Source: Tomocerus qinae (lineage: Eukaryota; Arthropoda; Collembola; Entomobryomorpha; Tomoceridae). From it: a DNA stretch of 64,000 nucleotides. How positions within the stretch are numbered: the first letter of the stretch is position 1; every line of letters starts with the position of its first letter. Of this stretch, positions 577 to 35,826 are shown one piece after another. Where the stretch lies: positions 21,668,701 through 21,732,700 of the forward strand of contig CM034548.1 in the NCBI GenBank assembly GCA_020055645.1. The letters run 5' to 3'. A program made the translations under genes and the position numbers. Below the pieces are notes generated by a model. It saw nothing but the letters and a program-made list of their open reading frames with translations, was not told the origin of the DNA and did no database searches.

Positions 577-582
577 TTTATT
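577..582 (-). promoter_or_regulatory. Polyadenylation signal of the lipoprotein gene
   Basis: Minus-strand AATAAA, 18 bases beyond the TAA stop at 600-602. If used, the 3' UTR would be only about 40 bases long. Another copy near 206-211 would give a longer 3' UTR. Confidence 0.45.
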
Positions 583-599
583 ACAATTAAACTATGTAG

Positions 600-1564
600 T
601 TAGTATGAATTAGTAGACTGTTCTTGTTCCATTAAGTCCGACGCTAAAAGTTCCTCCATGTCCAAGTATTGATATTTTTGCCAGTCTTCCATAAATCGTT
701 GGAGAGTTGGAGAGACACAGTGATGGCACATTAAATTAGCCCTTCCATTTTTATCAGGAACGCACTCACAGCGCTGACACTCTGATGGCTGAGATGTCTG
801 AGAAATCCTCCTTGACCAAATATCCAGAAATCTCTTGTTAGTCGGTTGCAGAACACTAAAACGAGTTCCATTTGTTTCCATTGCGAGTGGAGTGCAAAGG
901 TCTTTTGGCAAATTAATCTGTCTCTTCAGCGCCGTGTCTGGCTCTACATTTCCTCTCTTAGACGGGTGGGAGGTGTACACTCCATTAATGTCCATGCCAT
1001 AAAGGTCGACTTGTTTTTTGTTGTTGCCCTATTTGCAAATCACATAATGAGCATCATCCCTGTCGTTTTGCAAATTGAAAGTAAGTGACTCTAAACAGAC
1101 AAAGCAATAAACTTCATTTCACTCACCTTCATAGTAAATTCCTTGGGAGCCAGAATATGGAATTTTATATCGTTCTCAATCAATAAGGTGAGAGTGTCTG
1201 CAAACTGGTCCGCATCTCCACATTGCTCGTCTCCGCAAGTCAATGCTATGATGTTTTTGGAGACACCAGCTCTAAATCCAAGGGAAGCTGCATATTCAAT
1301 GGCTTCGTAGACATTTCCATTCTCCTCACCGTCCATTTGAATGTTTTCAGGAATTTTGAACAACGTGCTATGAGCCCAGACTTGAGAGGATGATGTTCGA
1401 ATGTGGGGCTTGCGATGAACTCCCTTTCCTCCGAAACCAACAATTGCGTATCTATTTTCCACTAGTCCTTCTGCTCTTAAAGCCAAATCTAATTTCGTCA
1501 TTGCTTCGGAAATTGAAATTCCGTCTAGACAAGATGACTCTTGCAACAGGAGGATGACATCAGA
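600..1564 (-). other. VWA-like domain and cysteine-rich C-terminus
   Basis: Exon 17 (1127-1653) encodes a Rossmann-like sequence: DVILLLQESSCL, then YAIVGFGG, then NIIALTCGD and FHILAPKEF. This strand order resembles a von Willebrand A fold, but the DxSxS metal site is replaced by LLQESS, so metal binding is doubtful. Exon 18 (600-1028) encodes LYGMDINGVYTS, LCTPLAMETNG and a CxxCxC...CxxC cluster, the signature ending of apolipophorins, then an acidic tail and TAA. Confidence 0.7.
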
Positions 1565-4500
1565 TGATTTGGGAGTGTCAAGAGGGCCGTTAGATTCCAA
1601 AGTTGCGTTCTCTCCACTCGTAAGTGCAGTTCCATCTTCTAATTTGCAGCGGACTATAATAGAAAAAATCAATGAAGAATAAACATAAGTGTCATAATAA
1701 ACGGATTTTAATTGATTTACCGCAAGAAGGAGGCATCCAGACATCAATGTTGTTTTTCTGACACTCAGAGACATAAGCACTGATGGCAGTACAAGCTGAT
1801 TCTTGACGGAAGGCGCTATTGACATTGACGGAAGTGTCATATTTGCACATTTCTGTGTAAATTGTGGTGTCAACTTTGTTAAAGCATGGTCGGAGGGGAG
1901 AGCTAATGTCACTGAATAGTTGGCTGCATATTCCATCAACATCAGTTTTCTCTACGTTGTCCCTTGCAAAGTTTTTGGCTCGGCAACCGCCGCTGTTCTT
2001 GCCAACCCTCCATGAATGAGCAAACGTTGATACATCTGTTACTATTTGGCCGTCGGGTGTTTTAAAATCATTCCAGTCCTCATTATCATAAGTTCCAAGA
2101 AGACCTGCCAATTTTCCAAAGTACCAGCCCGAGACAGATACTGTGCATACAGATGGACTCAAACTGCAACTCATTTGGAAACCACGAGAGTCAAAAACTT
2201 CCAAGCCACTAGGCTGTCTTCGGATAAAAGTTGGACCAACTTCAAGAGGAAGCTCCACCTTTTTTCCATCTAGCGTAACCTTGAAATTCGAAGTGTCGAT
2301 CTCAACAAATCTTTCATTACTGATGAGGGAGTAAGATTTTTTGCGAATATCACCGTCTTTTTGCTCGTAGTTTGCAATTAGAGAGAAGTTCTGGTGTAAG
2401 AGATCAGCAGCAAGAACGTAGCTGCATTCTCCTGCAAAACGGAAATATTTCTTGTCAAACGTAAAGTAGTGATAATCTCCGGCCATCACTGCGTGGGTCC
2501 CGAAAGGTGGAAGAATGTCTCGGATATTCATGTCGATAACTGGCCGAGCGTGTCTGAAGTTGTCCAGAATCTCATAAAACAAATCGCTCATTTTACTAAT
2601 TTCGTCTTCATCTTGCTGAGTTCGCTTCCATTGTGGATATTGAGTAAAATCTTCCCAGATGACAAAAACGAGGGATTGTTGGTACTCGATACGACCGCTG
2701 TCGATATCCCACACAAAAGCTACAGTTGGCACGTGACGTTGAATCATCCCATCCAGACTTTTCAAAGATTGTCTCACTAAGTTCTTGACTTTCTGCTCCG
2801 CTTCGATAATACGCATCAAATGAGATGAAGCATCCCTGACTTTTCTCAGTACAAACCGTATATAAGGCAATGGAGGGATTTCCAGGAATGGTAAACTATC
2901 CCCGTCAAAAGCTTTGCTTATGGCATCAAAGTAGGGTTTGTATTGGCGCTCTAAAGGTCTCCAAATTCTGTAAATTTAATTAAGAATTATTAAAATTTAA
3001 ATGAATGTTACATATTATTATTCAATTTATTAAGGACACTCACTTCTCTTCGAAGAAATCCGTGATATCATCAATGTAATCCTGAATAGGTAGTTCTTCT
3101 ATCCATGCTGAGTAATCTTGGTATAATTTGATTATTTTACGGACAATACTAACAGCAAGAATTTTCCTTTCCAACTCTTCTATTCTACCGTCAATTGCAT
3201 CTTCAATCAATTCGTAAACTTCTTCCAAATAATCAAAGAAATTGGAAATCGATTGGAAATTCTCCTCCCAGACAGCAACAATAAATCGCTCCGTTTCATC
3301 CCACGTGTTCATTATGATTGTTTCAAGTTCGCTTCCGTATTTAAGCCAAAATTCGTAAGCATCGACAACAAATTCTCCAACAATTTTGACAGTCGACCTT
3401 ATTAACTCCGTCGTCGCTTTTATTGTCTTTTCACTAAAAGAAATTCAGGTTCAAGATCAAGAAATATTTTACATCAATAAAATACTATGCTAAAATGTGA
3501 AATAAATGCATTAATCAAAAGTATAAGGGAAAGTACGTTTGCAAAAATAAACTAACCATATAGTGTAAACGGCTCTGTAAGAAGAGTTGAAAATGGCAGC
3601 AATATTTTGTGAGTAGAAGACATTTCTGTCGTACAACTCCTTTACGAAGTCCCAAGTAAGATATACATCCGTCATAATGGTCCTGAATTCATAATGAGTG
3701 GTGTTAATGACATTTTCGATCATCTGCTGAACTTCTGGTTCTAAGAAGTTCCAACGTTCATTAACTTCTTCTGAAACTACAGTCCAGACGAGAGTCGCTG
3801 CGTTTCCAAAAACCTCTCTGAATGTCTGAGGGGCATTAATTGAAACTAAAGATACTTGAATTTGGTCAAATAATTCCGGCCGCCATAAGACTGTACTTGA
3901 AATGAGTTGAGAAGTGTTTAATCTCAATGCCACAACAAAGTCATTAATATTCTTTCCGTATTCATCTCTCCATACTTTGACACTGATTTCCTTTTTGTTA
4001 GGCATTCCAGCGGAGATGTGCAATTGTTTTCCAGTGTCATACTTGAGATTTAAATCCAAACAACTCAAATTTTGCTTCAGACTTGCATCGAACTCAGCTT
4101 CAAATGTCTTAAAGTTAAGTAAATAGTGATCTTCATTGGGACTAATGTCCAGATAGAAAATCTTAAAAAGATTTGCCTCTTGTCCAGCATCAGCATCAAT
4201 TGTTATTCCATTTCTAGTGAGAGTCTTCCGGAGTTTTGCAAGGTGAACAATGCCACGGACGTCCATGTATTTAATAATAAAATTTTGCTCTTCTTCAGAT
4301 TGTTCAAATTGTAATTCTAAGTAAATATTGGTTGTTGGTTGAGTCAGTACGAAATTGAATCCATTCGAATCGGAGTCCTCGTTCAGTCTAAGAAAACGTA
4401 ATTTGACATCATTTTCTTTAAAGGGGGTTGGTTTAATTGTCATTTCAACATATTGGAATTGGTTGTATTTGTAGCCAGTTTCAGATGTGACGATTATATC

Positions 4501-7500
4501 ATGTTCCATAGCAGAGTAGGATACAGTCAACGTTTTGGATACTATAAAGCTTCTCCAGGCTGTGGTTTTCCTCTCCACCAATTCAAATCCGATTTTCTTG
4601 GTAGGGTCTTTCTTTGCATCCCATTGGATTTCAGCAAATCGAATGGATTCCTTTTCAGTTGATGTAATGCGAGATTCCACTTTCATGGACCTCCACGGAG
4701 TGAAGATCGTTACCACTCCGTCATATTTTTTATCCCTAGCATTGGAATTGTCATTGAACATAATGGAATAACCGAGTTCTCCACTTTTTTGCATTTGCAG
4801 TAAATCCCATCCCAATCGGACATTTTGTTCTAGTTTGGATGAAGTGAGTAAGTGACTGACATTTGCTAAAAGTGATCCAAAGTGGGCAGCTTGGAGTTTC
4901 AGAGAGATATCTTTTCCTGTTGAAGTACGACATAACACCAGCTCCGTTCCTATAGTATTTCCTTTCGGGTTTTTCAGATTCCAGCATATTTCAGCATTCA
5001 ATCTCAATTTGTGACTGGACTCCTTGTCGTACTTTATAGACAAAGACACCGGCCGTAGAGGATTATGGATTTCTAAGACTCTTTTACCATTTTTGCTAAC
5101 AAGTTCTATATTCATAATCTTTTTACCGTTGAAAAGCAATCCCAATTTTGTATCTAAAGAATTTATCAATTTATCAACGCTGAAATGCTCCTTGGAGTGG
5201 GTAAATGGAGAAATTCTTACTACAGCGTCAGCAGATCGGAATTTCTCCCACATTGTTCTAACAATGATTTTTCCTTCGACTGTACTTTCAGGATTCAAGA
5301 AAATAGCAACGACCGATATAATTGATTCTCCTTGAGATTGAGTTTTAAAATCAATGCTAACGTCATGTTCTCCTCTGGTGAAATCCATTTGGGTGGTCGT
5401 ATGATATTTGTCGTTCTTTCCTAGTTGACTTTCAAAAATTACAAACGTTTTTTCAGGGCTCCATCCAGCATCCAGTTTAAGGAATGGATTACAACTTTCC
5501 CATTTCCCTTCGACAATGGCGCTGTAGCCGCCAATTTTCATTATACTTTCTCCACGAAGAATAAAAGGATAGATTCCGAAGAAAGGTGCCGACATACTAA
5601 ATTCACCTTCCATATTTGCAAATCCTTCAAGACGGTACCTGTAATCCAGTTCCAGTTGAATTGGTTCCGCCCAGTCTGGTTTTTGAAAGTCAATGTGAAT
5701 ACTATGTCCTGAGCCGATTTCTTCATAATTTTCCAAACGCACAAAGAATGTGTATTTCTCAAATCCTTTAAAAGGTGTGGCCAATTCTGAAGACAATTTA
5801 ACGTTTTCGGACTCCCGACGAAGTTTCAAGTCGAATTTAATAACTTCTCCATTAAGTTCTCCTAGGGATTTAAATTCTGCACCGCTTTCCCATCCTAATT
5901 TACCACCCAGTAGTAATTCAACCGTTTCCAGAGTTTTAAAAGGCGATTTTAGTTTGAATCTCATCTGAATGATATTTTCCAGGTCTAATTCAAATGATCT
6001 AATTGATGAAGTCTCCAAACTTATAGCATAACTCGATGTTGCTTTGCTTTTCGTAACTAACTTTTCATACTTGGCCCCAAATTCCCCAGTAGTACTATTC
6101 GTGGGCATCTTGGACGTCACTGTAAAATTTACAATACAAAAATTAATTTTTAAAACATTTCTCACACTATTTATTTCCACAGAAATCGTAGAAAGTAATT
6201 TAAAAAATTATACGTACCTGATAAAGAATAAGAGACACAGGGCAAGCCGATAATCACTCTGGGACTCATGTTGGTCCACAAACCTTCTTCCAATGATGAC
6301 AAATCTGAGATTCCTAGCATTACATTGGGTATAGCTTCTACTGGTGTATATATTTCGACATGGAATTCTTCAGGAACAGATTTGATTGCTAAAGTTAACC
6401 GATCCAAAAACTCAAATGTTGTACGGATTTCAAATTTAGATTCCATATTTCTGAAGTTTTCATATCGAGAGGTTCCTTCCAAACGCCAGTGAGATTTGTC
6501 AAATTTAAAGTCTCCCAAAATATCAAAATCGCTTTCCGGTACGATGAATTTCAAGTGAATGTTGAATTCCCGATTTGGAATGTATGGACAAATAATATTC
6601 AGAAGGACTTCATAGTTTTCTATATCTCCGTTCATTTCTATACGATGAAGTACATCATTGACAGTGATCTCAAATTTTCCTCCGATGGCATTAGGTTGAA
6701 GTTTCCAATTAGCATCTAAGACAATTGGTAAAATGTCAGAAGATTGTATTTTTGCATGTATAGTTCCGCGATTCCTATCAAAGCCAATAGAAAATGAGCC
6801 GGAATGTGTAGATTTTCTTGTTCTGCATTCAATACTGGAATCAAATCCATTTTCAGTTGGTTTCACAACTCCAAGTATGACAACCTTTTTTCCTTTTAAT
6901 AAACTCATAGATTCTGCGCTTATTTCTGCTTCATAGATGCCCTCTTCGTTTTTACTGACATGCAATTGGGAGAAATGCGTTCCAAATGTGCCCGACATTT
7001 TTGAAGAAACAGTGAATGAATGACCAAGAATTGTGGTTAGACCAGAAATCTCAAATGATTTTTTCCCTTTAAGCCCTGAAATATCTACAAAGTACCGATG
7101 GTTATTCTTTTTGTACATTTTTGCGCTAAAATCTAACGTCTCGCCAATAAACCGAGGAGAATCCATTACAAGGCGAGTGTTCCACCCTTCAGAGTCTCGA
7201 TTTATGTCCAATTCAATAATATTGTAGCAGTGACTGCATGAAACATTCGCTTTAAATTTCACCTCCCGTGAAAGATCAAAAACTCCATTGATTTCCATTT
7301 TGTAAGGTGTGGAATCTGGCATGAAATTCGGCAAGTTGGCAATAGTTTCCAATTTGAATTGTGGAAGTGTTGAAAAATCCCATGAAACTTTCACCTGATT
7401 TGCTTTGTATCGCATATTGGCATCAAATTTCGATAGACTGATTTTATTTGCTCCAATTGAAAATTCAACCGGTTCTTCTGAGACGTATGAGCTGTCCACA

Positions 7501-10500
7501 AAAATTACTGTCCCAATTCTCTCAAATCTATCAATAGGAATTTCATAACCCAGGGCAAACTTTGATGTTTGAGAATTTGCATAGACCATTGTTTCAACAT
7601 GAAGACTCGCGCAACTTCCTACAGGCTGCTTGACTGAAGTCTGGACACGAATATCTGAAAATGAACTTCCTGGTAGAGACAAAGCCAGTTCAATATCTCG
7701 TTTTTGAAACCTTCCATAAGATGCATCGTCATATTGGAAGGAATTCCACAAGCTATGCAGAATTAGACGTCGTTCCAACAAGTTCAAATTAATTTTGACA
7801 TCTGTCATTTCTTTTCCATTCTCCATTGTCTTCTCTACAGTAAAAACGCAATCTGCTTTCTGTTTAAGCATGGGAATATCAATACTAACTTGTGCTCCAT
7901 GAATGTTTCCATTTCTCGTGGTAGAACCTTCCAATTTTGATTGTACTTGGTCATATACAAAATGAAGTTTTGCATTAATTTCCCCATTTCTCGAAGCTAT
8001 TAATCCGTGAGTACTAAAATCTTTTGTCCAAGGGCTGCTTAAAGAAACCTATTTAAAATCATAATAAATAAATAAAACCTTTAGTCATTACTTAATTATT
8101 AAATAATTTTCGATACAAATTAAATTAGGTACTTACAGAGAATTTTCCAGGACCAGTTTCTCCACTGAATTTCACAACTTTCTGACGATATTGAACTGTA
8201 GTCGAAATGGCCTTTGGAGAATCCAGATGAATATAAGATTGAATCATATAGTCTGTTCCAATGCTGGCATTAAAACTGTACTCTCGAAGTCCAATAAAAT
8301 GACTAGATTCGCAGCTGAATTTTTCAACAGAGTCGAAAAACAGAGAAAATCTTGCTGACGCTGATTTCCAAAGAGGAAGTCTGCCATTCTCAACGACATT
8401 GCCTCTGACGGAAATACTTCTTGTTCCCCAAGTACCAGTTGCTGTAATGTCTCCATTTTCTTCAATAGCAATTTCGACGGTTGTTGATTCAATCTGCGCC
8501 AAACTGGAAACTAGTTGGAAACTTGCCTTCGCAGATGATTGTGATGGTGTTTGAATGCTAATTCTCATTGATAAAGTTTCTTCCATTGCTTGCACATCTA
8601 CAGACAATTCCTTTCCGGTAGCCTTTGTAGTGTCATATACGCCGTTTACAAACAATTCTTTTAATCCACTGATACCAGAACTAAAGGTAGCCCGGAAATG
8701 GTCAGAGCCAACGGAGAAAGTAGCTTTCACTTCAGGTACAGATCCCATTTTGAAAGAAAAGTCGCTGCTAATCCCTTGAACAAAATTACCTCTCCAGTTT
8801 ATTTCAGAGCTGAGGGAAGGAACCAGATTTTCATCAGGACTTTCAACTTCAAGCTTGGCTAAGAAATTGGTAGACGGTCGAAGAGTCCCAATTACTTTCC
8901 ATTGAGCCAAGTGAGTGGAGTCCAAAGAAACAGTCAATTCCCGAGTATCATCGCTTTTATTGACTTTATAAGCTACTTTTACCGTTCCGGAAGAAGTAAT
9001 GGCTGCTAATGGGACATTGCTGTCTACATTCATGTATAATTCGATTTCATTGGAATTTTCGGGTAAGATGGCTGAGCTGGTGATGCTTACTACATATTGG
9101 CCTTGAGTGAAGAAAACATTAAATTTTTTGTTGGAAGTCTGCGATTCGTAAGTGATATTTGTTTGGAAGGGTTCGCAAAGTACCGGAGCATCAAAGTTAA
9201 GACTAATTGTGCTGGATTTAGGACTAATGTGGTATGAGCTTTGAGTATTGAAAATTGGTTCCTGATTGTATTTGATAACAACGCCAACGTCTGTATTGTA
9301 ACCGCTAGATAATTTTCCATTGATAACGATTTCTCGCAGACTCGAAAACGGTGTTTCCAGTTTTAATTCCAAAATTTTAGCTTTGGTACCTGTTAGTGAG
9401 CAAGAAATTTTAAATGTCTGAGTAGGTTTTTTATTTTTGTAAGACAGGGAAGCTTCAAACTTCTCATGTCGATGTAAAGAATAGTCAGCCATTATTCCTC
9501 TTTCTTCGCTTTCCGTTCCTGATTTCAACCATAATTCAAAATTGGCGCTCTTCCACTTTTCGCTCTCCCACGACGAGCGTACTGCGTATTTTCCCAATTT
9601 CGGGATATCGAAATGAGCATTTGCTTCACCATGACGAACGCCGGGCTCTAGATTCCAGCCTAGTTTAAGATTTTCCCAACCTTGGAAAGGTAATTCAATC
9701 TCCAAATTTCCCTTTTCAAATCCTTCAATATTTGTCATCAATCCTGCCTTATGTGCTTCGCCACCGGTGACAACTTCAACTTGAACATTAAATGGATAAC
9801 GATTCCAACTTACAACAGACGTGGATTCAACGAAGTAGCGGGCGATTTTAGATAGCAATACGATTTCTAATTTATTATCAGCGCAGGTAGTTTCAATTGA
9901 AAGTTCTTGTTGAGTATTGCGCTCCATTGCAAAATTCAGCTTACGGAAAGAAGGTTCTATAGTGTAGTTGGACGATAGTACGATTTGCTCATAGTTATAA
10001 ATGGGACTATTGACTTGTAATTTGAAAGAGCCCTCATCAGGAGAGTAGGAACCATTTAATTTGGCTATGTATCTTACCCAATCGTTTTGGAAATTGAAAG
10101 ATGTATCTAAGTCCCCAGAGTTTAAGCTAAATTGAACTTCTGCGGCAACATTTTTAAATCCTGTCATTGGAGATTTAAGCTCTACAGAAACTTTGGTCTG
10201 GCGGATACCTTCAAATTGATAGTCGCTCTTCAGTTCAGTTTTCTTGTCATTAATTTCCAAAATGGCATTGAATTTCTTTCCTACTTCGTGTTGAGCAGAA
10301 ACTTTAAAAATCCTCAGCCGAGGGACAGAAGTTTTAACTTCTAATTTGCCGTATGATCTCGTTAGTTCGAATGACCCATCAATTGTATGTGTTTTCCCTT
10401 CCAAATCTACTTGAGCGCTCAGCGTCTTTTTCTGATTAGAGCTAAGGACCAAATTGATGCTACGATTGAGACTAAAATATGGAGCTAAAATATCAGCTTT

Positions 10501-13500
10501 GATGTTAGCAGTAAAACCATTATTTGTCTCGAAAGAAGCTACAACATTTCCAGTGATTTTATCTTCATTTTTCCCCGCAACAACGCTGACCTTGTGCGTT
10601 CCTCTTTGACGAATGTATTGAGTCTTAATTTGATAGTTTTCAAATCCTTCCACGGGAATAGTCACTATTAATTCAAAGCTAGCAGACGCGGGAGATTTTA
10701 AATTCATGATTTTTCCTTCTAAATGTGCCGTTGTATGTAATTCTATTTTCTTGCCATCATCTCTTTCAACGACGAAACTTAAAGCTTTCCTCTGTCCTAA
10801 ATCGTACTTCATAGTTGATTTTACTCTCGTCCAAGGACTCCATGGCGTTTCAACGTTCAAATCGATTTTCCCTTGATCCACAACCAGTGTTGTTCCAATT
10901 GTTCCAGTTTTACCGTTGATATCCCATTCAAAAGATCCTTGATATCCCAATTGGTTCCTCTTGTAGCCAGTCTTAATACCGAATTTTTCAAATCCTGTAA
11001 AAGGACTAATTGCTTCAACGTGGATAGATCCGTTTGAAATGGCCACACGACCTCCAATGTTTTGTCTTTCTCCACTGGTTTTCAAGCCAAGCAAGATGTT
11101 GTATTCCGTAGTAAGATCGTAGCTAGCAGTTACATCGTACGTTTCATAAATTTTTACTTTGATCTGGGCGTTTCCTTTCCTGGGTGTGATATTCCACTTG
11201 CTATGCACTTCGTAAGTGTCTTCGTTCAAAGTGGTTTTTAATTTGAATTCTTTCTCCGCTGCAAACAATTCCCAGTTGCCACTCAATGAAATCTGCTTTG
11301 CAATTCTAATTGGAGTTTGAATTGATAGTAGGACATCCGAGGGGGACCATTTAGCGTGCAAGACTACATTTTGGGATTCCCGAGTTGCAGTAAACATGAT
11401 TTCTGACTTCCTAGCGATTGTGTAGACCAGTTTCCCTTCTAGCTTACGATATCCTTCGAAGGGACTCTCTAATCCGATTAAAATGTTACCATTGCTGATA
11501 TCGCTATTGACACGGATGTCCATTTTGTAAGTATCGTCTTCTTTCTGTACAGAAACGGAAAGGATCTTGGGATCTTCTTCAAAGTTGAATTCTCCTTTCA
11601 AAATTAAAGAGGTCCAATGGAGGAAAGGAGTTCGGATGTCAACCAACGCTTTGTTTAAGTCTACTCCGATGGTGAACAAAAATTGATAATTCTTATTTAC
11701 AAGCATTTTGATCGTATGCTTTCCTAATGCATATTCTCCTTTAACTTGACTGTATTGGGCATCAACTTTGTACATTTCTTTCCCCTGGTATTTTACAGTA
11801 GCTGTCAACTCATCCATCCCAATTGCGACAATATCTAGAGACGCATCCCATCCTCCACCGAGACTCCATTTCATAGATTTGTTTTCATCAGACCAAACCC
11901 CAACACCTTTGAAATTGTACTGCTCCTCTTTGTTCTCGTATTTACCTTCCATTTCAAATCCGCCTGGTCTAATTACATGCGTGAGACTCAATCTTATCTT
12001 TTTTAATGATGGGTGTAAACTGCTTTCAATTTCGAAACGACTTTCTCCTTCACCTAATGACACCTAGGAAATGGTAATAAAATAACTAATTCAAGCTTTT
12101 AATTGTCAAATAAAAACCTTTAGTAATTCAACCAAGTAAATTATTTATTGTTAGGCTACTTTTGGAAAGGTTCTTATTATTGAGCGAAAATGTATGGTTA
12201 ATGATTTCATTATTATTTATTACTAGGCCACCAGTACTTTTTTTGAATTTTGAAAGATTTAGGCTTCCGTTTAGGTTAATTTCGTAAGACGCTAATGCTA
12301 ACCCAGAGTTGAGTTCAATATTTTGTGTAATATGGTTATTTTAGCGACATTTGTCAAACATACTTACATTCAGCCCCCTTAAAGCTAAGAAAAACATCTA
12401 TTTTTTCAAAAAAGACTGAAATAACATTTAACATTTAACAATAACTCATTTTCATAACATTTTCATAAACTTTAAAGTGCCTTCCCCCTCCAACAAATTC
12501 CTGAATACGTGCCTGATAGCCACGGTATCCAATACGCACGATTAATGATGGACGCCTACCTTTCGAAATTGAGTCACCCATGCCAGGGGCTCGGCTACTA
12601 TCTTTACTCTACATAAACATAAACTGGGGCATGCGCATGGGATTGTTCCACTATTCTTGAATAAATGTTTGTATATATGTCCGTAATATTTTGTAACTAA
12701 TGAGTAAGGGTAATATTTTGTAACTAATGAGCAAGGGTAATATTTTGTAATTAATGAGCCAAGCCTAGACTACTGAATCAACGGTCTATGAAATTCGGGC
12801 CAATGCGCAGTCGCTAGAAATTTACTGATTGCAACATTTTCTAGCACACTTTGTGTGCTAGGATTCAACTAGTGTAATATAAAAAATATTGACATGAAGT
12901 CACATTTTGTAATTTATAAATTAAAAATTAATGAAACTTTTGACTTAGATCACAAGAAACGCGAACATTTTATTGATGATTTCTGTTGAAGTCAGATTTC
13001 ATAGTCCTTGAGGCAACCTTAAGAATTTTATAAGCCTGCTCAATGTGCCTAGATGGAAAATATTTATTTCAGGGTTCAAAATTTGAGGGATCAAATCATC
13101 ATAAACGACACCATTTATGACTATTTCGGACAATATATGCCTGGGTACTCTGTGACGGCAGTACGGATTTTTATCCAAAGCTACACATCATAGTCTATAG
13201 ATAAACGATATAAACGGGACCCTTGTAGCATAATATTGGACCAAAATCACATTTTGTAGTTTATCACTTTAAAATTAATTAATTTGAGACATGTGTCACA
13301 ATAAATGTTGTCATTTTAGTTATGGATTAAAAATGTCCAATATTATGATGTCAATTGAAAGTCCTTGAAACGAGCTTTCGAACGGTATACGACTTGTTAA
13401 TAATAGCTACATGGAAAGTATTTCTTTTAGGGTCCGAAAATTTAGGACCATATCATCATAAGTGACACTTTTTAAAATGAATTGGGGCCATTTTATCATA

Positions 13501-16500
13501 AGTGACAAAGGCCATTTTATCATAAGCGACAATTTTAATTTTCATGTATTTTCCTTATTTTTTCCGTACTGTTTGGAAAGTTTAGACTTTAAATATTTCA
13601 GTATGTAGGTATTTAGCCTAGGTATTTTTGGTATAACCCATATTGATATAGGTAGTTGTTTGACTTAATTATAGACTTAATTGTAATTAAAGGCCTACTT
13701 GCACATATGATGTACTGCGCTTTTGACATGATTATAAATCTGAAAGTCCTTTTCATAGTAACCTATTGTGTCGGAAAAATTAAATGACATCTCTAGCAAT
13801 TGCAATTTTATAATTAGAACTTTTAATGCAACGTTTAAGGATATCTTATATGAATTGTACGAAAATTGTCGTTTATGATCATATGGTACGAAACGAAAGT
13901 CGCTTATGCCACCAAGTGTCGTTTATGACTACATGTAGTCTCAATCAAAATTAAATACTTCCCGTTCTTGTTTAACTACATTAGCAAGGTTTACATCAAT
14001 CGAAAGATCGTTTCAAGGACTATTAAATGATATTTCCAACGCAAAATTGGTGGACTTTTTTCAAGCCCAATACGATGTTCACTAAATAAAATGTAATTTA
14101 CTCGGATATTATTTTATAAGCGTTCTGTTAGTCGTCTGACTGAATAGCCAGATAGTTTAAAACACGCTAAGGCCTAAAAAATCTTTACTAACAGCTATCT
14201 GTTAACCAATAATTGTGTAAATTACCAATTTGTAATATTTAGGCTGAAGGTGGGAGCTATAGGTGAAAGCCAACCTGTGGACAAATCCCATGCCACTGAA
14301 AAGTGGGTGGAGTTTGAGGGAATTTGTTATGGGATTTTGACTTCGAATGACGTCACTCAATGCCATATTTAGGGAATTTACAAGTATTTACGTGCTACTA
14401 ACCTCGGGGCTGACCTCGGGTGATCTCGCATCTCCATTAGCGATAAAAATAACAGCTAGTAAATTAGAGCAACAAATTGACCTACCAGGCTATCTATCGT
14501 CTAAACGTGTGGTAGGGTGAGCCAAAATACAAAAATTGCTAGTACCAATGCAACGCTCTCTTGGTTAATATTAGTATATTTCGAAATGTAACCTAAAGAT
14601 TTTGACAGGTAAATCTTTTAAAATTCAATATCAGAACTGGTGGCCTAGGAGGAAATATTTTTTAAAATGAATTTAGACTTAAAGAATTGGAGAGCAGTTT
14701 TATCAAATCTCACTATGCTCAAAAATTATACTACAATTATACTGTTATTTGTCTAAGTTGTTAAACATGAAAGAGATTATGACGATCTCCCTTTACTAAA
14801 AACAGATGTTTGCATTAGAAGCTGTAAATATTACTGTTGAGAAATATCCACGGTGCATGAAAATGGCAATACTTATGTAGTATGGCTTAATGCAGACGTT
14901 AGCGAGTGTAAGGCTAAAGCATGATGACATTTTAATTGAGTTACGAAAAAGATTTACTTACCATAGAAGAGAGATGGAAGCTTATCAAATTGACATTATG
15001 ATTACGTAAGTTCATTTCAATGACATGGTTATCCCAGTCGAACAAAACAGTTCCAACAACATGAGGTCCGTCAGAGTAGTGAAAGTCGAGGTCTCCGCTG
15101 ATTTTGGAATGTTCTTTTCCCCCCTTCACCTTAAAATGTAGGATCTCTTCGCCACCAGAAGACGCTGAAAAGAAAGATGTGAGACTATCGCTGTGTTTTT
15201 CATATCCGGAAATGATTTCCATGCGTTGAGCAAATGTTGGGTTGACGCTGATTTTGATGTTTCGCTTATGAGCTGAATTTTCAAACTCTCCTCTGATCTC
15301 CGCAGTTTCCTTCCCGAAGACAGCACTTCCTGTGATATACTTTCTGTCGTTGATGTTAAATCTGACATTAGTATGGAATTGATTGTTTTCCACTCCCCAA
15401 ATATAACTAGGCATGGGAGTTATTCTTAGATCCGACATGTGGGAGATTGCATTGGAGTCCACCATGCTGTGACGGCTTTGCAATTCAATAGTAGGTACTT
15501 GCTTGAAAATGGAGTTCAATTTAACTTGAGCATCCCATTGCCCTGGGTTGGTTTCCTCAAAGTTCGTAAAGATTTGTATCAACGAATTCGAGCTCTGTAC
15601 CACATTGCATAAGATTTTGAACTTCTTGTCGCTTCTCTCGTGTTTAAATTCAAAGGATGATCTTGGTTGAGAAGGAGTTTGTCCCCAAGCAGTTGCTTCA
15701 ATGGATTTACCATCGTCTACAAAATGCCATGTTATTCCAGCCACTGTCTGTTCCCCATTAGCCGTGATATCTACATTTGCTGTATTTGTAATACCGTTCT
15801 TCTTACTGGAAATATTCAATTCATATTTGTTGTTTGGGAATTCAAGGTAATTGTGAACAACAGTGTTGTCAGCATCCACAATTTGTCCTACGGAAGAAAT
15901 TCTTACTTGGTTTCGTGTTTGTGAAGACTCCCAAGATACAAAAACTTCATTACGGAAGTCGCTCAACTCTCCATTGACTTTCGCAACTACGAGAACCGGG
16001 AAAAATTCCAGCGACCCGTCCAAATTGATTTCCAATTCACGCACCAAATGTCGATTTTTCAAACCCACACTTGCCTCCAATTTCTCAAAATTTTTCCATG
16101 GAGTGGATAATAGGAAAGTATGTAGAAACGGTTTCATTTGAGAGGTCAGTTTGAATGTCATTTGGCGGCGACTGGATTTCACTGGAATCCACTGGATCTG
16201 TGCCCCGGTTGATAACTGGTCTGTCATTTGGTGGTAGAATTCGAGATAAACCTACAAAATAAATAAATTTATAATCTCGTAAATTCCAACGGGGTATTAA
16301 AATGGCCATTTTAAAATCCAATTATTAATTTCTGAAGTGAAATTAGTATTTCCAACCTGTGGCAGAATTGTACATCCGCTGAATCCCATTCTTGTATCAT
16401 AGCCACCTTGAAGGCGTGTAAATTCGAATGTGAATTTTCTAAGCTCTTCTCCCCGCTTTGCAGTCAACTCAAATGATTTTTGATTTCCAGTTTCTCCTAG

Positions 16501-19500
16501 AGTAATAATTCCTTCCAATTTTGGATAGCCACTGATATCAAGTGCAGCAGAGAATCGAGATTCCGGAGTGCTAAGTAGAGCAGATGAAGAAAATGCCGAA
16601 TATCGTTCTTCGACCTGTCCTCGTATAGCTGTGTCCATTTCCGCTCCATTAAAATGGTGGGTTACAATCAGAGACGAAACCTGGAGTCCTTCGAATGGAG
16701 TTTCTAATTTTACAGAAAATACTGTTTCTACAAAACTGAAAGATGGTGCTGTAACGATTAATTTGAAGCGTTGATCCACGCCCCATTCCGCTTCCACTTG
16801 CAAATCAGTGTCTTGAAGTTTTCCAGTAGCTGAAAATGCTTCTCCGAAATAGTCAGTTCGAATATGAATAGCCTCATTGCTAAGCGTTCCATAAAATACT
16901 AGTTTGCTTTCACTGTCTTCATCCGCATCTGGTGTTAGCGAAAAGGAGAGAGCAAAAGGTAGAGGGAATTCTCCAGTAAACTAAAAAAAAAAGAAATCAG
17001 AAAATAATTTAATACCATTATTGAATTGTGTTTCATACACTAATTGGATTGCAAATAATATCAAGTTAGCCATCAAATTAAAATATAGTAAGCAATTCAT
17101 ATACCCCATAATTATATAATTTGATTTTGGATATGAAGAGAAAGATGCTACATTAAATTTGTAAATAATATTTTTGTGTAAAGAAAACTAACGTTATATT
17201 AGCAATCTAACCTTCATATCAGCCACGATGTGTTTTTCTAGTTGTAGATCAACAGTAGCAATCCTTTCCCCTGATTTCGTTTGGCGATAATTAATTTCAC
17301 CATTGTACTTCTTGTCATTCAAAGTTAGCTTGCCCTCAATTTTGTGTGTATTAATTTTGACGATATTGTAATCAAGACTAGTACTCCAGCGTCCAGGTCG
17401 CTTCCCCTCGATTTCAAAAGTACCTCCGAGGTGACTTTGTTTGTCGCTTGAAGATAAGGCAGCGGAGCCAAAGAATGGCGCATCAGTGAAGCCTCTGGCA
17501 CGGAATTCTAATGAGTGATCTAATTTCATATTATTGGAGCGATTTATATAGGTAATCGTGGCTTTCATTTCTGGGTCTTTGTTCGGAACAAGGATAAACT
17601 CTGCTTCAAACTCCCCTGCGCTTTTTTCAATGACAGCCGAACGCAGAGCGTAGTCACTGTCTGGCCAACTAGCCTCAGCAGTCAATCGCTTTTTCACCAA
17701 TGTCTCCGCTTCAGTTTGATATTCCATGTGAGCTCTGATTTCATTTTCTGGGTTTGTTCTTCCAGAAACTTTGGTCGTTACGTTGTTCTTCCCAACGAAA
17801 TTGAAAAATTCGAAATTCCAGTCGATTCCTTGCTTTGGAACGGCAAGTGATAGTTGAATGTTCAGTTCCTGCTGCTCCCGTGTCACTTGCTTATTATAGA
17901 GGGTGTGAGCATCCCAAGTATATTTCCCCAGAGTAAATCTTGCAGTATTTTCACAAAAGCCAGTGCTTTTTTGGTTGTCAAATGCGAATTCAAAGTTAAG
18001 TTCGGGAGACTGTGGGGAGAAGAAACTAGCAGCGGCATTAAAACGAGTCAGGGCTCCCTTTTTCGTTCTTTGGACCTTTGCGTTTATTTCCAGATTTTTG
18101 CTTTCTGAATTCTCCCAGGAATAATGCATACTAGACTTGGTGCTGAAATGTCCTGGTTTGAGACGGAATTGAGAACGAGCACTTCCACTTAGCATATAGG
18201 AATCTATCTCGAAATTGGTATCATATTTTTCTCCGCTTTTGATAATGTCACCTACGAAAATGAATTGAAAACCGTATTAGATTAATTTCCAACAAAAATG
18301 CGGTAACTATCAAAGAATAATTAAATTACATTTTACCTTTAAGAACGATAGGTTTTTGTGTGAGATACTTGAGTGCAAAATCAAAATTTGATTTGCTTGT
18401 TTCATCACGAGGATCGGGGAGGTTGATAGTTCCGGTAAATTCAGCAATTGGTTTCTTATAATACTTAATTAGGAAATTTGGCTCAATGCGACGTCCTTGT
18501 GTTCTTAGATTCGTATTAAAAAAGAAGATCCTTTCTTTTGCCGTGTCAATGGTAAACTGCAGATTTTTTTGGGCCTTTGAATACAATCCTTCCGCTTTGA
18601 AAGTTTTTTTTGGTGTTTCGAATCCGGCGACCAGTTTTCCATGATTAGTATCGAGATTAAAATGCGTCGAGAATCTACGGTCAACAAGTGACCCTGGTGT
18701 GTTAAAAATAATGCTGACTTCCGTAGACGAAGGTTTATTGTCAAATTTATAATCAAATTCATAGCTAGTAAAAGTATCTGTTTTCTCCAGGTACAAGGCT
18801 GCCTTCGCAGGGGTGATTAGAGGGAACGAAGAATCTTCAGCGACATCAATTTCCCCACAGAGTTTTACTCCAAAGATATAAGAGAATCTATCTGAGGTAC
18901 AAACTTTGTGCTGGAATTTGGGGAGTCCAATTGGACCAGTTTCAATTGCGTCGGGTTTACCAGATGGGCTCAAAATAAAAAGTTGTGACTTGGCTTCAAA
19001 GATTTCTTGCTTATCTTGGGGTAAGCTGAGAGATGCATGAATAACTTTCGTGCCTTTCATCATAATGTGACCTTTGACAGATGTTGACGAGTGCAAAGTA
19101 TTCTGTAACTTCAACCCACTTTTTATTTGCTGACCAAGTTGTCCCAATTGAACTGTGAGAGATCCATCAATTTTTAATGATGCGCTCGGCTGTAACGATC
19201 CTTGGATTTCAAATTCTTTTTTATCTAGAAATTTTGCTACATCGAATCTTCCAGTGGCAGCCATTCGTACTGTGGTCGCTGATTGAATTGACAAGCTTAA
19301 AGGAATACCCGCTGAAGTCGCTACTGAGTAACTCACATCCATCATGATATTCGAGTTGGTAAATTCAGTTTTTTTTCCTGTGCTCAAATTATTTAGAATA
19401 CGGCTGACGTCAAACCAGTTTTTCCCGCCTTCGTCATACAATGTTGGTACGCTTCCCTTATCAGAAAACTCAAAATTTTTGTACAGGATTTCATGGCCAA

Positions 19501-22500
19501 ATATTTTTGTGGAAAATGAGCCTCCTGGAGATGCATCCATTCCTTTGGTCGCCTGTTCGTAAACGGAGCCTAGTCTTTCTATTTCGTTATTGGAAACGTC
19601 TCTTTTCTTCCTGATTGAATGCAAAACATCGGTCATACTTGTATCAGGGAAATAACCTTGAGGTCCAAATACTGGTTCTAGAAGTTGTTCTAATGAATGA
19701 ACCCTTGCGTCGAATTCCACGAGGTTTATTGCTTGTCCAAAGGCAAGGACTGTTAGATTAAGCATAGCCGATCGTGGGATGAAGGAATCTGGAGTAAAAA
19801 TAACGTTAGCATCCACATTGGCTCCAGCATTCATTTCTTCCCAAAAAAGAGCTCCTTCATAATTCCTTGAAAACTTTCTGGCGTCAGTATTGAATTTATT
19901 TTTCAAAAAATCATTGGCTAGCAGATTTCTTATTGTTTGTTTGTCGGGGCTTGAAGTTTCCTGAAGATTTGTCAAATGAGTCCATACAAAAGAGCCAACT
20001 ATAAAAAACGGTATAAATTCAATTAACTGATCTTTAAAATTGAGGTGTGATTAATGTTTGAGATATCATTGATTATAACCTTGGTTAACTGCATCTGTGT
20101 ACAAAGTGTCCTTGACCGAGTCGATAATTTGCCTATCAGGGCAACGCATGACACTCAGATATGATTTTATCCTCACCTCAGTATTTTCTTGCATGTCAGT
20201 GTACACACTCAGCATGGGTCTATTTTCAAAGCATTTGCATGGCATTCTACGGAAAGCGTCAATTGAAGCCAAGCGGATTTCAATAGGATTTGTCTTTTCT
20301 TGGAAGCATCTGTACAGATTATTCAAGTGCTGCTCTTCATTTTCCTCAGGGACTCGTCCTGCATTAGCGATTGCTTTGAGAGCAATTAAAATCTGTCTCG
20401 TCTCTTCCTGATCATAATCAGCACTAGTTCTGCATGCTACTCCTATCTGCGAAATTATTTTTTTCAGAGCGTCTTGTACTACATCTTCTGTGCAAACTCC
20501 ATTTTCTTTACAGTAGCTATTGATCAGAGAAGAAATCCCGAGCATTGCTTGTTTTCTTGGAACATTGTCCAGCAACGGCTACATACATTCAAAATTTTAT
20601 AGTCATTCATCTTAAATTTTATATTTTCCACTAAATTCTAAACAATAAATACCATTAGAGCTGAGATCATTTGAACATGAGGTTCCTTAATGAAAGCCAC
20701 GCTAGTGAGCCAAGCATCTTCCTGTGCTTGACTCAGAGTGTCTCTGAGTAGGAACTCTGTCATTAATTTTAATGCCGGAGCAGTCCCCACTAGAGGTAGA
20801 GCATCTAGTAAATACTTTCGTCCTGCTTCCCCCTCTGCTCTTTCAAACAAAGTTTTCAAACTGTCGTGATTGAGTTCTCTCATTAGCTGTACAAGATGAA
20901 TGAATTGATTTGCTGCATCCGACTCCACTTCAACTTCATTGTCTCGCTGTAAACTTTCCAAGGCTGATAATGCGGCAGTAATATCTCCACTATTTCCACC
21001 ATGATCAGTCTGAGCCTCGTATAGCAACGTCGATTTTCTTTCGTAACTGATATCTATTTTTAGAAAGATATTTCCTTATTCGTTTTAACTCTTTTAATTC
21101 ATGAATTTTTATTTTTTTATTAATCGCATATTTATTATTGATTTACTAAACCTGAAGGTTGGGCGGATAGATGTTCTTTGGAATAGATTAAAGTCTGGAC
21201 AACAATAGTATGGGCACCACTGCCTTCTTTCTCAAATGGTTGGAATTTGTGTTCTTCACGGCAGTTGACTTGCTCTATTTTCTTGTAGCGAACAGTTTGG
21301 GTACATTCCTGCACTCCCGAAAGAAGAGGAATGCCCTGAATCAGTGAATTCGATGTATATGGAACAGATTGCAAAACAGTGAACTGATTATGACGATAAT
21401 TGCATTTTGTCAAGTCTTTCACTTTCCGGTACGTTTGGCTACCTCCCCAAGAACTTCCTGTTGGTTCATATGTCGTCAGGCATTGTCCACTGACATCAGT
21501 CTAATAATTTATCCAAAACATTTTAAAAATAAAATCAAGAGATAAGAATGCATCAGCAAATGGTATGAAAGTCTCACCTCTTGAAAAGTCTGTTCGGCTT
21601 GAAAGTTATTCATAGTATTTTGTAAAATGGACAGTAGACCACGTTTGACATTAACAACCCAAATGGGGTCATCCAATTGGGAACAGATTTGTTCAATTTT
21701 TCCATCTTGAAATGCGAAACGAATAGGTCTGCGCTCAATATCTGTAACCATACTTCTTGCTCCTTCCAAAGTATGCTTCTCATTTGCATTTTTAGGGTCT
21801 GAATCTTCGAGTCGTACATTTTTAAGCTATATAATTATTATAAAGAATCATGTCGTTAGTAAATATTAAATATTCATCGTCAGTATAGGTTTATCATGAT
21901 TGAAAAATGATACCTCTAGCTGAAATTCGCAAGAAGAAATAGCCGATATTTCCGCTGTTGCCGTTAAATGAATTCGAGATTCTTGAGATGAGCCATCAAT
22001 TACAGACGAACTAATATCCGTTGCATAATCGTAGACATAAGTCGTTCCAGGTTCATATGCAAAGTTTTTAGAATCTAAAAATAATTATACTTATATAGGT
22101 TTAACATTTGCACATAAGGATGCGACTAAAAGGAAGGATTCTTGTCATAGAAATGAAAGGAAGCATTAAAAAATTGACACGTGTGTTTGCACTAAGTATA
22201 CATACCTTTACAAAATGAGACGCATTTTGACGTACTTCTAATACCGGCAGGGCCTAAGGAAAACAATGAGGACTATGAAATGTATCATTTATATTAAGAT
22301 TAAAGCTTAATGTACAGTACAGGCATTGTGTTAAGTGCATATTCCAAAGACGTCAGATCTCACTGAAATAGTTTTGAAAAGAGTGTTATTTTCGTTGAGC
22401 AAATATCACTTGAAGACAGAAAATCTTATCATATAGTTGTATAAATAATGTAACAGAGAAAACTGAGTAATATACTTCTCTGATTAAGAGGTCAGTTTAT

Positions 22501-25074
22501 TAGTTCGAAGTTCGTCAGGACAAATTGATAAGCGCAGTTATAACAGAGTGCACACAAACTCATCTCTTTTATTGGCTATCATTTAGGAAAGTGTAGAATA
22601 AATTGAAATGAAAAACACTTGATTCTAACTTATTGACTTACAGTCAAGTGGAAACTTATTTGCTCATTACTTTTGTAAAAAATTATTTTAACAGGATCGT
22701 GGCATTTCTTTATCATTCAATTACGCATCAGATGAAAATTCCCAAATATATGATGAAAACATTATTGTAAATGTAGCACCCTAACACCAAGTTTGATTGG
22801 GAATAGAAATGCATTGAAAAAATAAGGAAATAAATCTCAGTTGTTGATTAATAACAAAGGACTATATCATGGACAGTTTTGCGGGATGAACATTCCAGAA
22901 AAATTAATTCGATATCAACTGGATAGGTCTAGTTGGGAGTTTCAAAACTCACTTAAGCGGTTTTTGATTAATGCAATGACGTTACTAATTGCATTATCAA
23001 TATAATTAGCATCTCATTCAAGGTCCCTCTTCATAAAATATACATAGGGCCATTCAAGATCAAAGATTTTACTGTTGTTCCTACAATATCTACGTATGTT
23101 ATTAAGAAAAATCTTTTACCCAGAAACTGGCTTCCTTATAATATAATTTGATTGAACATGATTTATTACTTAAGGTATATAGCTACACAAGTAATAATAA
23201 TAATGATAAGGGTAAGTACCTACATAATATTGTTGACAATCATTCTCCTTAAATAATATTTGTATTTTGTCATCTAATCAAAGTCCATTTCATCATCTTT
23301 TAATGAATCTCTTCACGGATCTTGTGCCTTAACTATTATGTAAATTAACTCCAGTATAAAAGATGGTATAAAAGAAATACATAATTAAACTCCAAAAACC
23401 CAAACCGAGAAAAAACCGTCTCCTAATGCATAATTTTCCACAATATTTTCCTAAAAAAATAAAAATCGAAAAGCTGCAAGTTTATTTGAAAGTAATACCG
23501 ACCAAAGCATAAGAAACTAAGAAATCTAATTTTAAAATTATGAAAAACAAAAGATTTACGATTTAAAAGAAACTAAATTCATATTGCAAAATATTCTGCC
23601 AAAATATTCTAATAATTTATGTTAAAATCCTGAAAGCCGAATATACAGTTCGGTTACAGTTTGAAATTTAATTTCGAGGGTAATAAATTTGATTTGATGA
23701 CAGATTATGCAGAAAAGTAGTTAAATTTTGATAACGTCTATAGCGTTGATAGCCACCTTTGCACTTTTATGTTATTTATGGGTTTGACTACCGAGTAATG
23801 ACATAACATGACAAGGCAACATCAAAGTCAGTTTAAGAAATTCATTTATAATCTCATGCAATTATTACATGACAACTCCCTATCACTATTATTATGAAAT
23901 GTTTTGCTAATTAAATAAATAATAAGTCTTTTTACTAATAATTTTAATACAAATAAATGACATGAATGCATCTTTGATGAGCAAAGATGCACATCTAGCA
24001 TGAAAGGAAACTATTTCGTTGACGTAAACAAGTCCTCCTAACCCTAGGACATCAGATCATCTAACCAAAGCATGGTGATAGCGTGCTTTGCCGGGGAAAT
24101 GATCTCTTATGCCTCCGACTTACACACTTGTTTCTTTGTTGAAGTCTAATTAATGAGATTATATTTCACTGCAATTCATCTTTGTGAATAACAACATAAT
24201 AAGTATGTGCTAATGAATGATTATCCAGCTATAACCCATTTAAACATGTCTTTGCTACATGTCACTTTTATGGCATTCCTTCCTATCTCCTTACATTTAA
24301 TTCATTTGCATTATTATGCTGCTTCATTTAATCATTTTGATTTTATATATAAGAAATACAAAAAATGAGAAATTCGATATAATAAAAACATAAAAAGCCT
24401 GTTTAGTCAATAGCTCCTTCGAAAGAAAATAATAGATGAAACTATTAATATAGGTATAGGTAAATAATCTATAGCTAACGAGCTTTCTCTTGTAAATGGT
24501 AATAAAATTGGAAAAATATTATTATTTTCTATTTCAATGTAAAAAATATGATTATTATAGCTTTAAATCCTTACGTAAGTTATTTTTTAAATAATTAGAA
24601 GGAAACTTTGACACCATTTGTGACTATTCGAACAAATTCCACTAATTCGCCAATGATTATAAATAAATAAAAATTTTACCAGAGGAAGAATACGCTTTAA
24701 ATATTCATTGGTTGCAGATTTATGTCCTGCTTTGAATTGCACTCAGAGAATATCACAAAATAACAAAATGTAGGTAACTTTTATTTTAAAATAATAGAAT
24801 TTCATGCCTTGCAGTGTTTCTGATTCTTAACACGAAATAATTTAGCACCGCATGTAAAGCTAAGTAACGCAATTAAAAACTAAGTTGTATGGAAAGCAAT
24901 TCTTGATATCTACAATATAATAAAATAATTCACTCGTAGTGTTATGTAGTTTATAAAGTAATGATTGAAATTGAAATAATTACCTGAAACCACACTTGAC
25001 ACAAATATAAAAAAAGTCACTATTGTGTAAAACATATTTCGGTGTGGCTCACTCGCATTTGCGAGTCTAGCCAT
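600..25074 (-). CDS. apolpp: Apolipophorin-type large lipid transfer protein precursor, 5,775 aa
   Basis: Secreted lipoprotein scaffold of the large lipid transfer protein family (insect apolipophorin-II/I; crustacean discoidal lipoprotein precursor). I joined 18 coding exons (high to low): 25074-24984, 22253-22206, 22074-21914, 21826-21578, 21500-21152, 21053-20653, 20578-20080, 19998-18337, 18251-17212, 16980-16357, 16251-14962, 12063-8137, 8048-6218, 6119-3557, 3433-3044, 2967-1721, 1653-1127, 1028-600. All introns are GT-AG, all phases match, and the total (17,328 bases) divides by three. Order: signal peptide, Vitellogenin_N-type module (about 47-620), RKKR furin site (729-732), beta repeats (to about 4,800), helical segment, VWD (5199-5370), VWA-like (5488-5633), Cys-rich tail. 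The tail (CQRCEC then CHHC, preceded by LCTPLAMETNG) is apolipophorin-like, which argues against vitellogenin. Insect relatives are near 3,300 residues, so this one is unusually long. Start: Met in good context (A at -3, G at +4). Confidence 0.93.
1983..2498 (-). other. von Willebrand factor type D domain
   Basis: Residues about 5199-5370. The domain opens with GDYHYFTFDKKYFRFAGECS, the usual VWD start (phenylalanine-rich, then the first Cys). It later has GLLGTYDNEDWNDF, the GL(C)G-x-NN motif with Leu replacing the usual Cys, as is common in arthropod lipoproteins. It ends near SWRVGKNSGGC. It lies entirely in exon 16. Confidence 0.88.
2640..3830 (-). other. Amphipathic helical segment before VWD
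   Basis: End of exon 14, all of exon 15 (3044-3433) and the start of exon 16 switch from beta-type repeats to acidic, aromatic-rich sequence with helical spacing, for example DETERFIVAVWEENF and RIEELERKILAVSIV. It probably forms several amphipathic lipid-binding helices. The domain assignment is inference from composition and periodicity. Confidence 0.6.
12683..12759. repeat. 27-bp tandem repeat, nearly three copies
   Basis: Units begin at 12683, 12710 and 12737. The core of each is GTAATATTTTGTAA followed by an AATGAG-containing end. Copies differ by one or two bases. Confidence 0.85.
12899..14045. repeat. Diverged direct and inverted repeat cluster with a 12-base core motif
   Basis: Two diverged direct copies (about 12899-13112 and 13247-13468) both start TCACATTTTGTA and end ATCATCATAA(A/G)(C/T)GACAC. 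A third copy is inverted (about 13917-14045): its CGAAAGATCGTTTCAAGGAC at 14001-14020 is the reverse complement, bar one base, of 13361-13380. The core TCATAARYGACA recurs near 13096, 13452, 13493 and 13517, and inverted near 13867, 13898 and 13917. This looks like a degraded MITE or nested insertions. Confidence 0.65.
19601..19612 (-). other. Furin cleavage site RKKR
   Basis: Residues 729-732 read R-K-K-R followed by Asp-Val. This matches the furin consensus and sits where insect apolipophorin precursors are cut into the N-terminal apoLp-II (about 700 residues) and the long apoLp-I. Cleavage here would give a fragment of about 700 residues and one of about 5,040. I saw no second R-X-K/R-R site in a comparable position. 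Confidence 0.8.
19940..22074 (-). other. Vitellogenin_N / LPD_N lipid-transfer module (exons 3-8)
   Basis: Residues about 47-620 of the lipoprotein. It opens with FAYEPGTTYVYDYATDI, the conserved beginning of the beta-barrel in this family, followed by a cysteine-containing strand region. Exons 6-7 (20080-21053) are alpha-helical and leucine-rich, as expected for the helical horseshoe, with CKCF and MRCPD near the end. In the family this module binds lipid and starts lipoprotein assembly with the microsomal transfer protein; that role is by homology. Confidence 0.85.
22254..24983. other. Intron 1 of the lipoprotein gene
   Basis: 2.7-kb phase-1 intron between the signal-peptide exon and exon 2. 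It is AT-rich with no coding exons visible on either strand. The only distinctive structure is a run of short perfect hairpins at 23967-24105. Confidence 0.65.
23967..24105. other. Cluster of hairpins inside intron 1
   Basis: A perfect 10-bp stem (23967-23976 with 23982-23991, 5-base loop) is followed by a weaker GTCCT/AGGAC stem (near 24032-24049). Then comes a two-tier hairpin: outer stem 24054-24060 with 24099-24105, inner stem 24066-24072 with 24084-24090, with unpaired bases between. The two-tier shape recalls an H/ACA-type pocket, but I could not place H or ACA boxes. A non-coding RNA is possible and not shown. Confidence 0.25.
24984..25074 (-). other. Exon 1: start codon and signal peptide
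   Basis: First coding exon of the lipoprotein gene. It encodes 30 residues. A second Met at residue 14 begins the hydrophobic stretch MFYTIVTFFIFVSSVVS, a typical secretion signal. Translation may begin at Met1 or Met14. The exon ends TTTCAG|GTAATT and joins exon 2 in phase 1. The 2.7-kb intron that follows separates the signal peptide from the body of the protein. Confidence 0.8.
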
Positions 25075-35750: not shown

Positions 35751-35826
35751 TAGTTTGGGCCACATTTAAAAAAATTTTACGGGCACGGGCGGGCTCGGAC
35801 TGATGAAGGATTGTTACGCGCAGGCT

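Follow-up and report, generated by a model that had tools for sequence, protein, structure and literature searches.

The large lipid transfer protein (LLTP) superfamily is marked by the Vitellogenin_N (LPD_N) module. Its APO group (apoB, apoLp-II/I, and apoCr) is set apart from the vitellogenins and has DUF1081 behind the open beta-sheet, to which apoLp-II/I and apoCr add a C-terminal VWD. In Drosophila, two cleaved apoB homologues have been described: the bulk of the lipid travels on apoLpp, which is loaded by a scarce, dense particle formed by apoLTP (as given in PMC3406001). Both the N-terminal module and the VWD are present in a protein encoded on the minus strand of a 64,000-nucleotide stretch of the genome of the collembolan Tomocerus qinae (contig CM034548.1, positions 21,668,701 to 21,732,700), here called the window and numbered from its first letter. 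The reading that we favour, with slightly better than even confidence, is that one gene encodes a secreted precursor of the apoB family, approx. 5,775 residues long, which would be a specialised second lipoprotein acting like apoLTP.

Rebuilt from the sequence, the gene runs from 25074 to 600 and comprises 18 exons separated by 17 GT..AG introns, with consistent phases and no in-frame stop; its coding sequence of 17,328 nucleotides yields 5,775 residues, which reproduces the exon structure and length proposed in an earlier note on this DNA. The model was compared with the output of a gene finder, a dynamic-programming script that returns one gene by construction, with codon scores trained on exons 1-7 and 15-18 only and splice scores taken from these same 17 introns. 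At penalties of 12, 16, 20, and 24, it recovered 18, 17, 17, and 17 of the 18 exons and gave proteins of 5,888, 5,824, 5,805, and 5,759 residues, respectively; at a penalty of 6, the gene was over-split into 59 exons.

Pfam searches of the protein revealed Vitellogenin_N (PF01347; residues 53-608, E = 1.8e-86), Vit_open_b-sht (641-933, E = 1.4e-59), VWD (PF00094; 5203-5349, E = 5.1e-23), and C8 (5389-5454, E = 3.1e-8). In phmmer comparisons, the N-terminal module (residues 46-721) is colinear with residues 41-715 of human apoB-100 (entry 9bd1; E = 1.6e-50), and lipovitellin is matched at 3.4e-33; exon 8 matches apoB-100 at 3.8e-14. The pattern R-x-[KR]-R occurs only once, as RKKR at residues 729-732 (19601..19612, minus strand), and cleavage at this predicted site would release chains of approx. 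79 and 571 kDa. A simple moment profile assigns residues 299-798 to a helical region, 799-4808 to amphipathic beta structure with one break of 17 residues, and 4809-5225 to a second helical region, so that some 4,010 residues of beta lie between two helical parts. The beta runs measure 3,564 and 429 residues, and the longest run in 20 shuffles of the whole protein was 424. In the proposed mechanism, all 18 exons would contribute to one transcript, the N-terminal module, judging from its family, would act together with MTP in lipid loading along the secretory pathway, furin would cut the precursor into the two predicted chains, and the amphipathic beta region would lie on lipid. When a 394-residue piece of the N-terminal module was used to scan prokaryote contigs, none of 20 pattern-matched stretches was confirmed, and a scan of viral contigs returned none.

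The 334-Mb genome contains 23 Vitellogenin_N matches, which group by position into ten loci. The strongest single-exon match of this search belongs to paralog A (C5, about 15.625-15.636 Mb), a gene of the ordinary apolipophorin type that encodes about 3,113 residues with a furin-type RVRR (713-716), an open sheet, DUF1081 above the cut-off, a VWD, and a weak C8 (E = 0.03). Its model was ended at an in-frame stop that the gene finder had skipped into two short exons, and its first exon, which differs between two gene-finder runs, is unsure. Paralog A displays the same helix-beta-helix order with a more broken beta part. It aligns colinearly with the window protein only at the ends (window 44-1068 with A 27-1055, and 5154-5457 with 2812-3110), and the middle between these ends measures 4,085 residues for the window protein and 1,756 for A. 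An end-of-beta anchor, which was matched by eye, lies 527 residues from the VWD motif in the former and 524 in the latter; thus, the 2,329 extra residues sit in the beta part. The comparison places the excess over an ordinary apolipophorin mainly in the predicted beta region, as the earlier note had proposed on the grounds that both terminal modules are of usual size. That premise does not extend to the C-terminal part, whose size departs from that of A: A ends just after C8, whereas the window protein continues for 318 residues.

Traces of this tail were found in paralog B (C3, 40.60-40.68 Mb), a gene with long introns that encodes the N-terminal module, REKR, the anchor motif, VWD, and C8. 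Four stretches of B resemble exon 17 (E = 0.18, 0.0013, 0.0048, and 0.44) and one resembles exon 18 (E = 7e-6), all five in order, and one further match is out of order (E = 0.23). With these queries, the best E-value was 0.31 in the stretch of A and 0.54 on the opposite strands. The tail domain encoded by exon 17 is only VWA-like (Pfam VWA, E = 0.26), and no solved structure matched it better than E = 0.54. Models of B obtained at five penalties range from 3,966 to 5,450 residues without the C-terminal end, and its length is therefore uncertain; the distance from the furin-type site to the anchor is 2,621-3,217 in these models, so that the beta region of B would be of intermediate length if they are roughly right. 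A transposase-like piece, recognised by eye inside the B model, probably stems from a mobile element lying in one of the long introns. The N-terminal modules and VWD regions of A, B, and the window protein are alike.

A tree of N-terminal modules comprises ten rows, each taken from this genome, with no named reference or insect sequence, and it contains several long branches. It groups the window protein with B (88/87) and A with a short paralog (92/95), neither grouping reaching the mark that the tree tool sets for strong support. A 98/96 split separates them from four rows, which were labelled vitellogenin-like on the basis of their position and length and, in one case, a VWD motif. The short paralog of APO type lies on C2 at about 5.94 Mb and encodes approx. 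1,670 residues in a gene-finder model, in which no VWD motif was seen. On C5 (20.155-20.173 Mb), two adjacent vitellogenin-like genes lie on one strand and are mutually similar in sequence.

The manner in which the beta region was extended is visible in exon 12 (8137..12063, minus strand), whose 3,927 nucleotides encode residues 2139-3447, amphipathic beta throughout. Nine units of approx. 54 residues (residues 2261-3073; 9259..11697, minus strand) were chosen there by eye on a TPFxGF-like motif for a repeat model, and scores are high in this part by construction. Within exon 12, residues 2409-2590 and 2684-2869 are identical at 33 of 170 positions (E = 7e-8). Since iterated repeat models train on their own matches, only the first round and a held-out test count as evidence. 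In the upstream exons 8-11, the nine-unit model found two matches (6.1 and 5.3 bits, over 15 and 18 residues), which beat the best of 50 shuffles (2.5 bits); one match in exons 13-14 also exceeded 50 shuffles. Moreover, the beta region contains 18 occurrences of [ST]P[FWIM] vs. 3.4 expected, with none elsewhere in the protein, and the spacing of adjacent occurrences favours 54.5 residues (P = 0.012, for a motif chosen after viewing the sequence); the corresponding counts are 6 vs. 2.1 expected in B and 3 vs. 0.8 in A. It appears that internal duplication of a unit of approx. 54 residues accounts for at least part of the growth of the beta region, most clearly in exon 12; the origin of the extra length outside exon 12 has left no visible trace. 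Two matches between the window protein and A fall off the colinear line, namely 1152-1201 with 1937-1985 (E = 0.0025) and 2685-2754 with 868-937 (E = 5.6e-6), and the latter joins exon 12 to the open-sheet region of A, from which the repeat unit may have derived. The presence of repeated protein units in exon 12 could also mean that duplicated sequence was introduced during assembly and that the extra length is an artefact. This explanation is barely credible, as the repeats are just 19% identical and both tandem DNA arrays found in positions 1-26000 fall in intron 11.

Intron 11 (12064..14961, minus strand) is 2,898 nucleotides long, is in phase 0, contains two short tandem repeats, and is one of only two introns longer than 2 kb. 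It is here that the model might have fused two genes, an N-terminal apolipoprotein that would stop no later than the intron and a separate VWD-bearing protein downstream of it. Such a split is conceivable because in the salmon louse the LPD_N and VWD ends are found on separate predicted genes: LsLp1 (1,714 residues) and LsLp2 (2,153 residues, with VWD only) are reported 16 kb apart on one supercontig (PMC8545670). The acceptor of the intron is merely middling (within the best 11% of AG sites), and two genes sharing the intron scored 1834, 1742, 1668, and 1600 at penalties of 12, 16, 20, and 24, vs. 1823, 1740, 1668, and 1602 for one gene, so that the two-gene score equals or slightly tops the one-gene score at penalties of 12 and 16. 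Because of this neutrality, the two-gene model was raised from a slight to a somewhat less slight probability, and confidence in the single apoLTP-like gene, already only a little above even, was lowered a shade. The splice phase and the strong donor, in which GTAAGT follows ATG (within the best 0.9% of GT sites), fit one gene; coding scores are 0.42 and 0.43 bits per codon in exons 11 and 12, and beta character and the repeat type are present on both sides. In addition, the start of the second gene looks non-secretory by eye at penalties of 16, 20, and 24 and is moderately hydrophobic at 12, which is odd because the second protein would bear VWD and C8. Of the ATG-started frames in the intron, 16 were listed; a density of 7 hydrophobic residues in 10 is attained by five of them, and none has a convincing signal peptide, as judged by eye only. 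On biological grounds, the two-gene model is therefore disfavoured, and we regard it as improbable. At three of the four penalties the gene finder inserted an extra exon starting at 12608, and 50 consecutive codons of the intron have an exon-like score (0.437 vs. a median of 0.44 in exon 12); 12131-12608 (minus strand) may hold one or more extra exons, including an Asn-rich open reading frame at 12131-12340.

The product of the window gene could instead be the animal's main lipophorin apoprotein, in an enlarged form whose particle, loaded with bulk lipid, would be larger or of another shape; this comes close to what the earlier note proposed. The domain order is the same as in Locusta apoLp-II/I, a longer beta region could hold more lipid, and A is without the tail. 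However, A is of ordinary apolipophorin size and type, with DUF1081 above the cut-off, and gave the strongest match of the genome search, and we consider the enlarged lipophorin possible but clearly the less likely reading. Since A fits the role of bulk lipophorin, the window gene most likely encodes a specialised second lipoprotein. Its likeness to apoLTP rests on the coexistence of an ordinary apolipophorin and on length rather than on orthology.

Several observations weigh against an apoLTP-like second lipoprotein encoded by one gene. DUF1081, found at 957-1072 in human apoB (PMC1783640), scores 22.4 bits at residues 965-1054 of the window protein vs. a Pfam cut-off of 25 (E = 1.6e-4). The repeat stands out in exon 12 alone, and the held-out matches are short (12 to 18 residues) and weak. 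The grouping of the window protein with B stays below the mark for strong support in a tree without insect sequence. The gene finder does not decide between one gene and two, and the single transcript is a prediction from genomic sequence. Finally, insect apoLpp may likewise carry a VWA-like tail; in that case, A could be the exception, and the window gene could encode lipophorin itself.

A more specific and rather doubtful proposal is that the window gene and B represent a tail-bearing giant apoB lineage in which the unit of approx. 54 residues multiplied, to serve as an extended lipid-transfer scaffold beside a normal lipophorin rather than as an enlarged carrier. If this is true, the beta belt of the window protein would be among the longest uninterrupted ones known, and belt length would be the evolving variable. 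This touches the question of what upper length an apoB-type beta belt can have and whether particle size or function depends on it. Provided that each is one transcript, the short (A), apparently intermediate (B, of uncertain length), and very long (window) versions would form a natural length series within one animal.

The remaining exons of the gene, all on the minus strand, follow the domain order of the protein. Exon 1 (24984..25074) contains the start codon and a signal-peptide-like segment (residues 1-31), with a hydrophobic core judged by eye and Met14 as a possible alternative start; exon 2 (22206..22253, residues 31-47) was missed by the gene finder at penalties of 20 and 24. According to the gene model and Pfam, Vitellogenin_N begins at residue 53 in exon 3 (21914..22074), continues through exons 4 (21578..21826), 5 (21152..21500), and 6 (20653..21053), the last preceded by an intron (intron 5) with weak splice sites, and finishes near residue 608 in exon 7 (20080..20578). 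Exon 8 (18337..19998) encodes the open sheet (641-933), the furin-type site, and the sub-cut-off DUF1081. By the model and the moment profile, exon 9 (17212..18251) is amphipathic beta, as are exons 10 (16357..16980) and 11 (14962..16251), each with one short match of the exon-12 repeat type; at a penalty of 16, the end of exon 11 was placed at 15006. Downstream of exon 12, amphipathic beta continues in exon 13 (6218..8048) and ends in exon 14 (3557..6119), in which the second helical region begins (residue 4809 on). Exon 15 (3044..3433) is amphipathic helix, and exon 16 (1721..2967) contains the end of the helical region, VWD, and C8. Exon 17 (1127..1653) encodes the weak VWA-like domain and exon 18 (600..1028) a Cys-containing C-terminal tail with the stop codon, just past which an AATAAA (577..582, minus strand) is a candidate poly(A) signal, though the hexamer is common (205 matches in the window).

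Elsewhere in the window, an HMG-CoA synthase gene adjoins on the plus strand (28570-32295; Pfam 3e-33 on the first exon, later exons by eye), and an open reading frame that reads by eye like an RBM8A/Y14-type RRM lies at 33405-33731 (minus strand). At 35424-40709, open reading frames of the long interspersed nuclear element (LINE) type encode a reverse transcriptase and an endonuclease with a sub-cut-off PHD finger; they lie between inverted arms of 337 nucleotides that are 95% complementary, which is odd for a LINE. A gene of the PAN and cuticlin/ZP type, in keeping with an arthropod, occupies 58030-61045 (minus strand; PAN_1 2.9e-9, CUT_N and CUT_C below cut-off). Among families that bear on the animal group, Spidroin_N gave 0 matches (as did its control), 7tm_6 one weak match, and the CHH-type hormones 2 matches, and the DNA reads as that of an arthropod that is perhaps not a winged insect. 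Searches of the window with Rfam (gathering scores) and ARAGORN returned 0 and 0 matches, respectively.

Among described systems, Locusta apolipophorin II/I shares LPD_N, DUF1943 (the open sheet), VWD, and C8 with the window protein and has DUF1081 as well (as annotated in PMC7360829). With 5,775 residues, the window protein is 2,395 residues longer than this precursor of 3,380 residues, and its DUF1081 match is below the cut-off; it also exceeds the solved chain of human apoB-100 (4,563 residues), and both length comparisons of the earlier note therefore hold. Human apoB-100 is not known to have a furin site or such a tail, and its beta regions are parted by a helical one, whereas the beta region of the window protein is without a large helical break. 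Furthermore, apoB is presented without VWD in PMC8545670, unlike the window protein.

The earlier note had omitted two further long precursors from its comparison, those of Drosophila apoLTP and of a crab, and had likened the protein to the discoidal lipoproteins of crustaceans. Decapod dLp/HDL-BGBP precursors are indeed very long (4,831 residues in Scylla) and, like the window protein, combine LPD_N with DUF1943 (as described in PMC8416765 and PMC8545670). However, the furin sites predicted in Scylla lie at 2,990-2,993 and 4,096-4,099 (PMC8416765) and would yield three chains, whereas the window protein has its one furin-type site at 729-732, and the crayfish precursor is stated to be without the VWD that the window protein carries (PMC8545670). 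A precursor of this type, giving discoidal particles, was rejected on the furin-site pattern and the VWD, and we regard it as very improbable. To our knowledge, no family member is longer than the window protein, although animal proteins lay outside our searches and no record is claimed.

The closest counterpart may be Drosophila apoLTP, which is likewise a second apoB homologue beside an ordinary apolipophorin (PMC3406001). It reaches Ser4333 (PMC4486166) and is thus shorter than the 5,775 residues of the window protein. As described in PMC3406001, apoLTP carries furin sequences after the vitellogenin-N module as well as a VWD, as in the window protein, with two closely spaced furin sequences in apoLTP vs. 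one in the protein of T. qinae.

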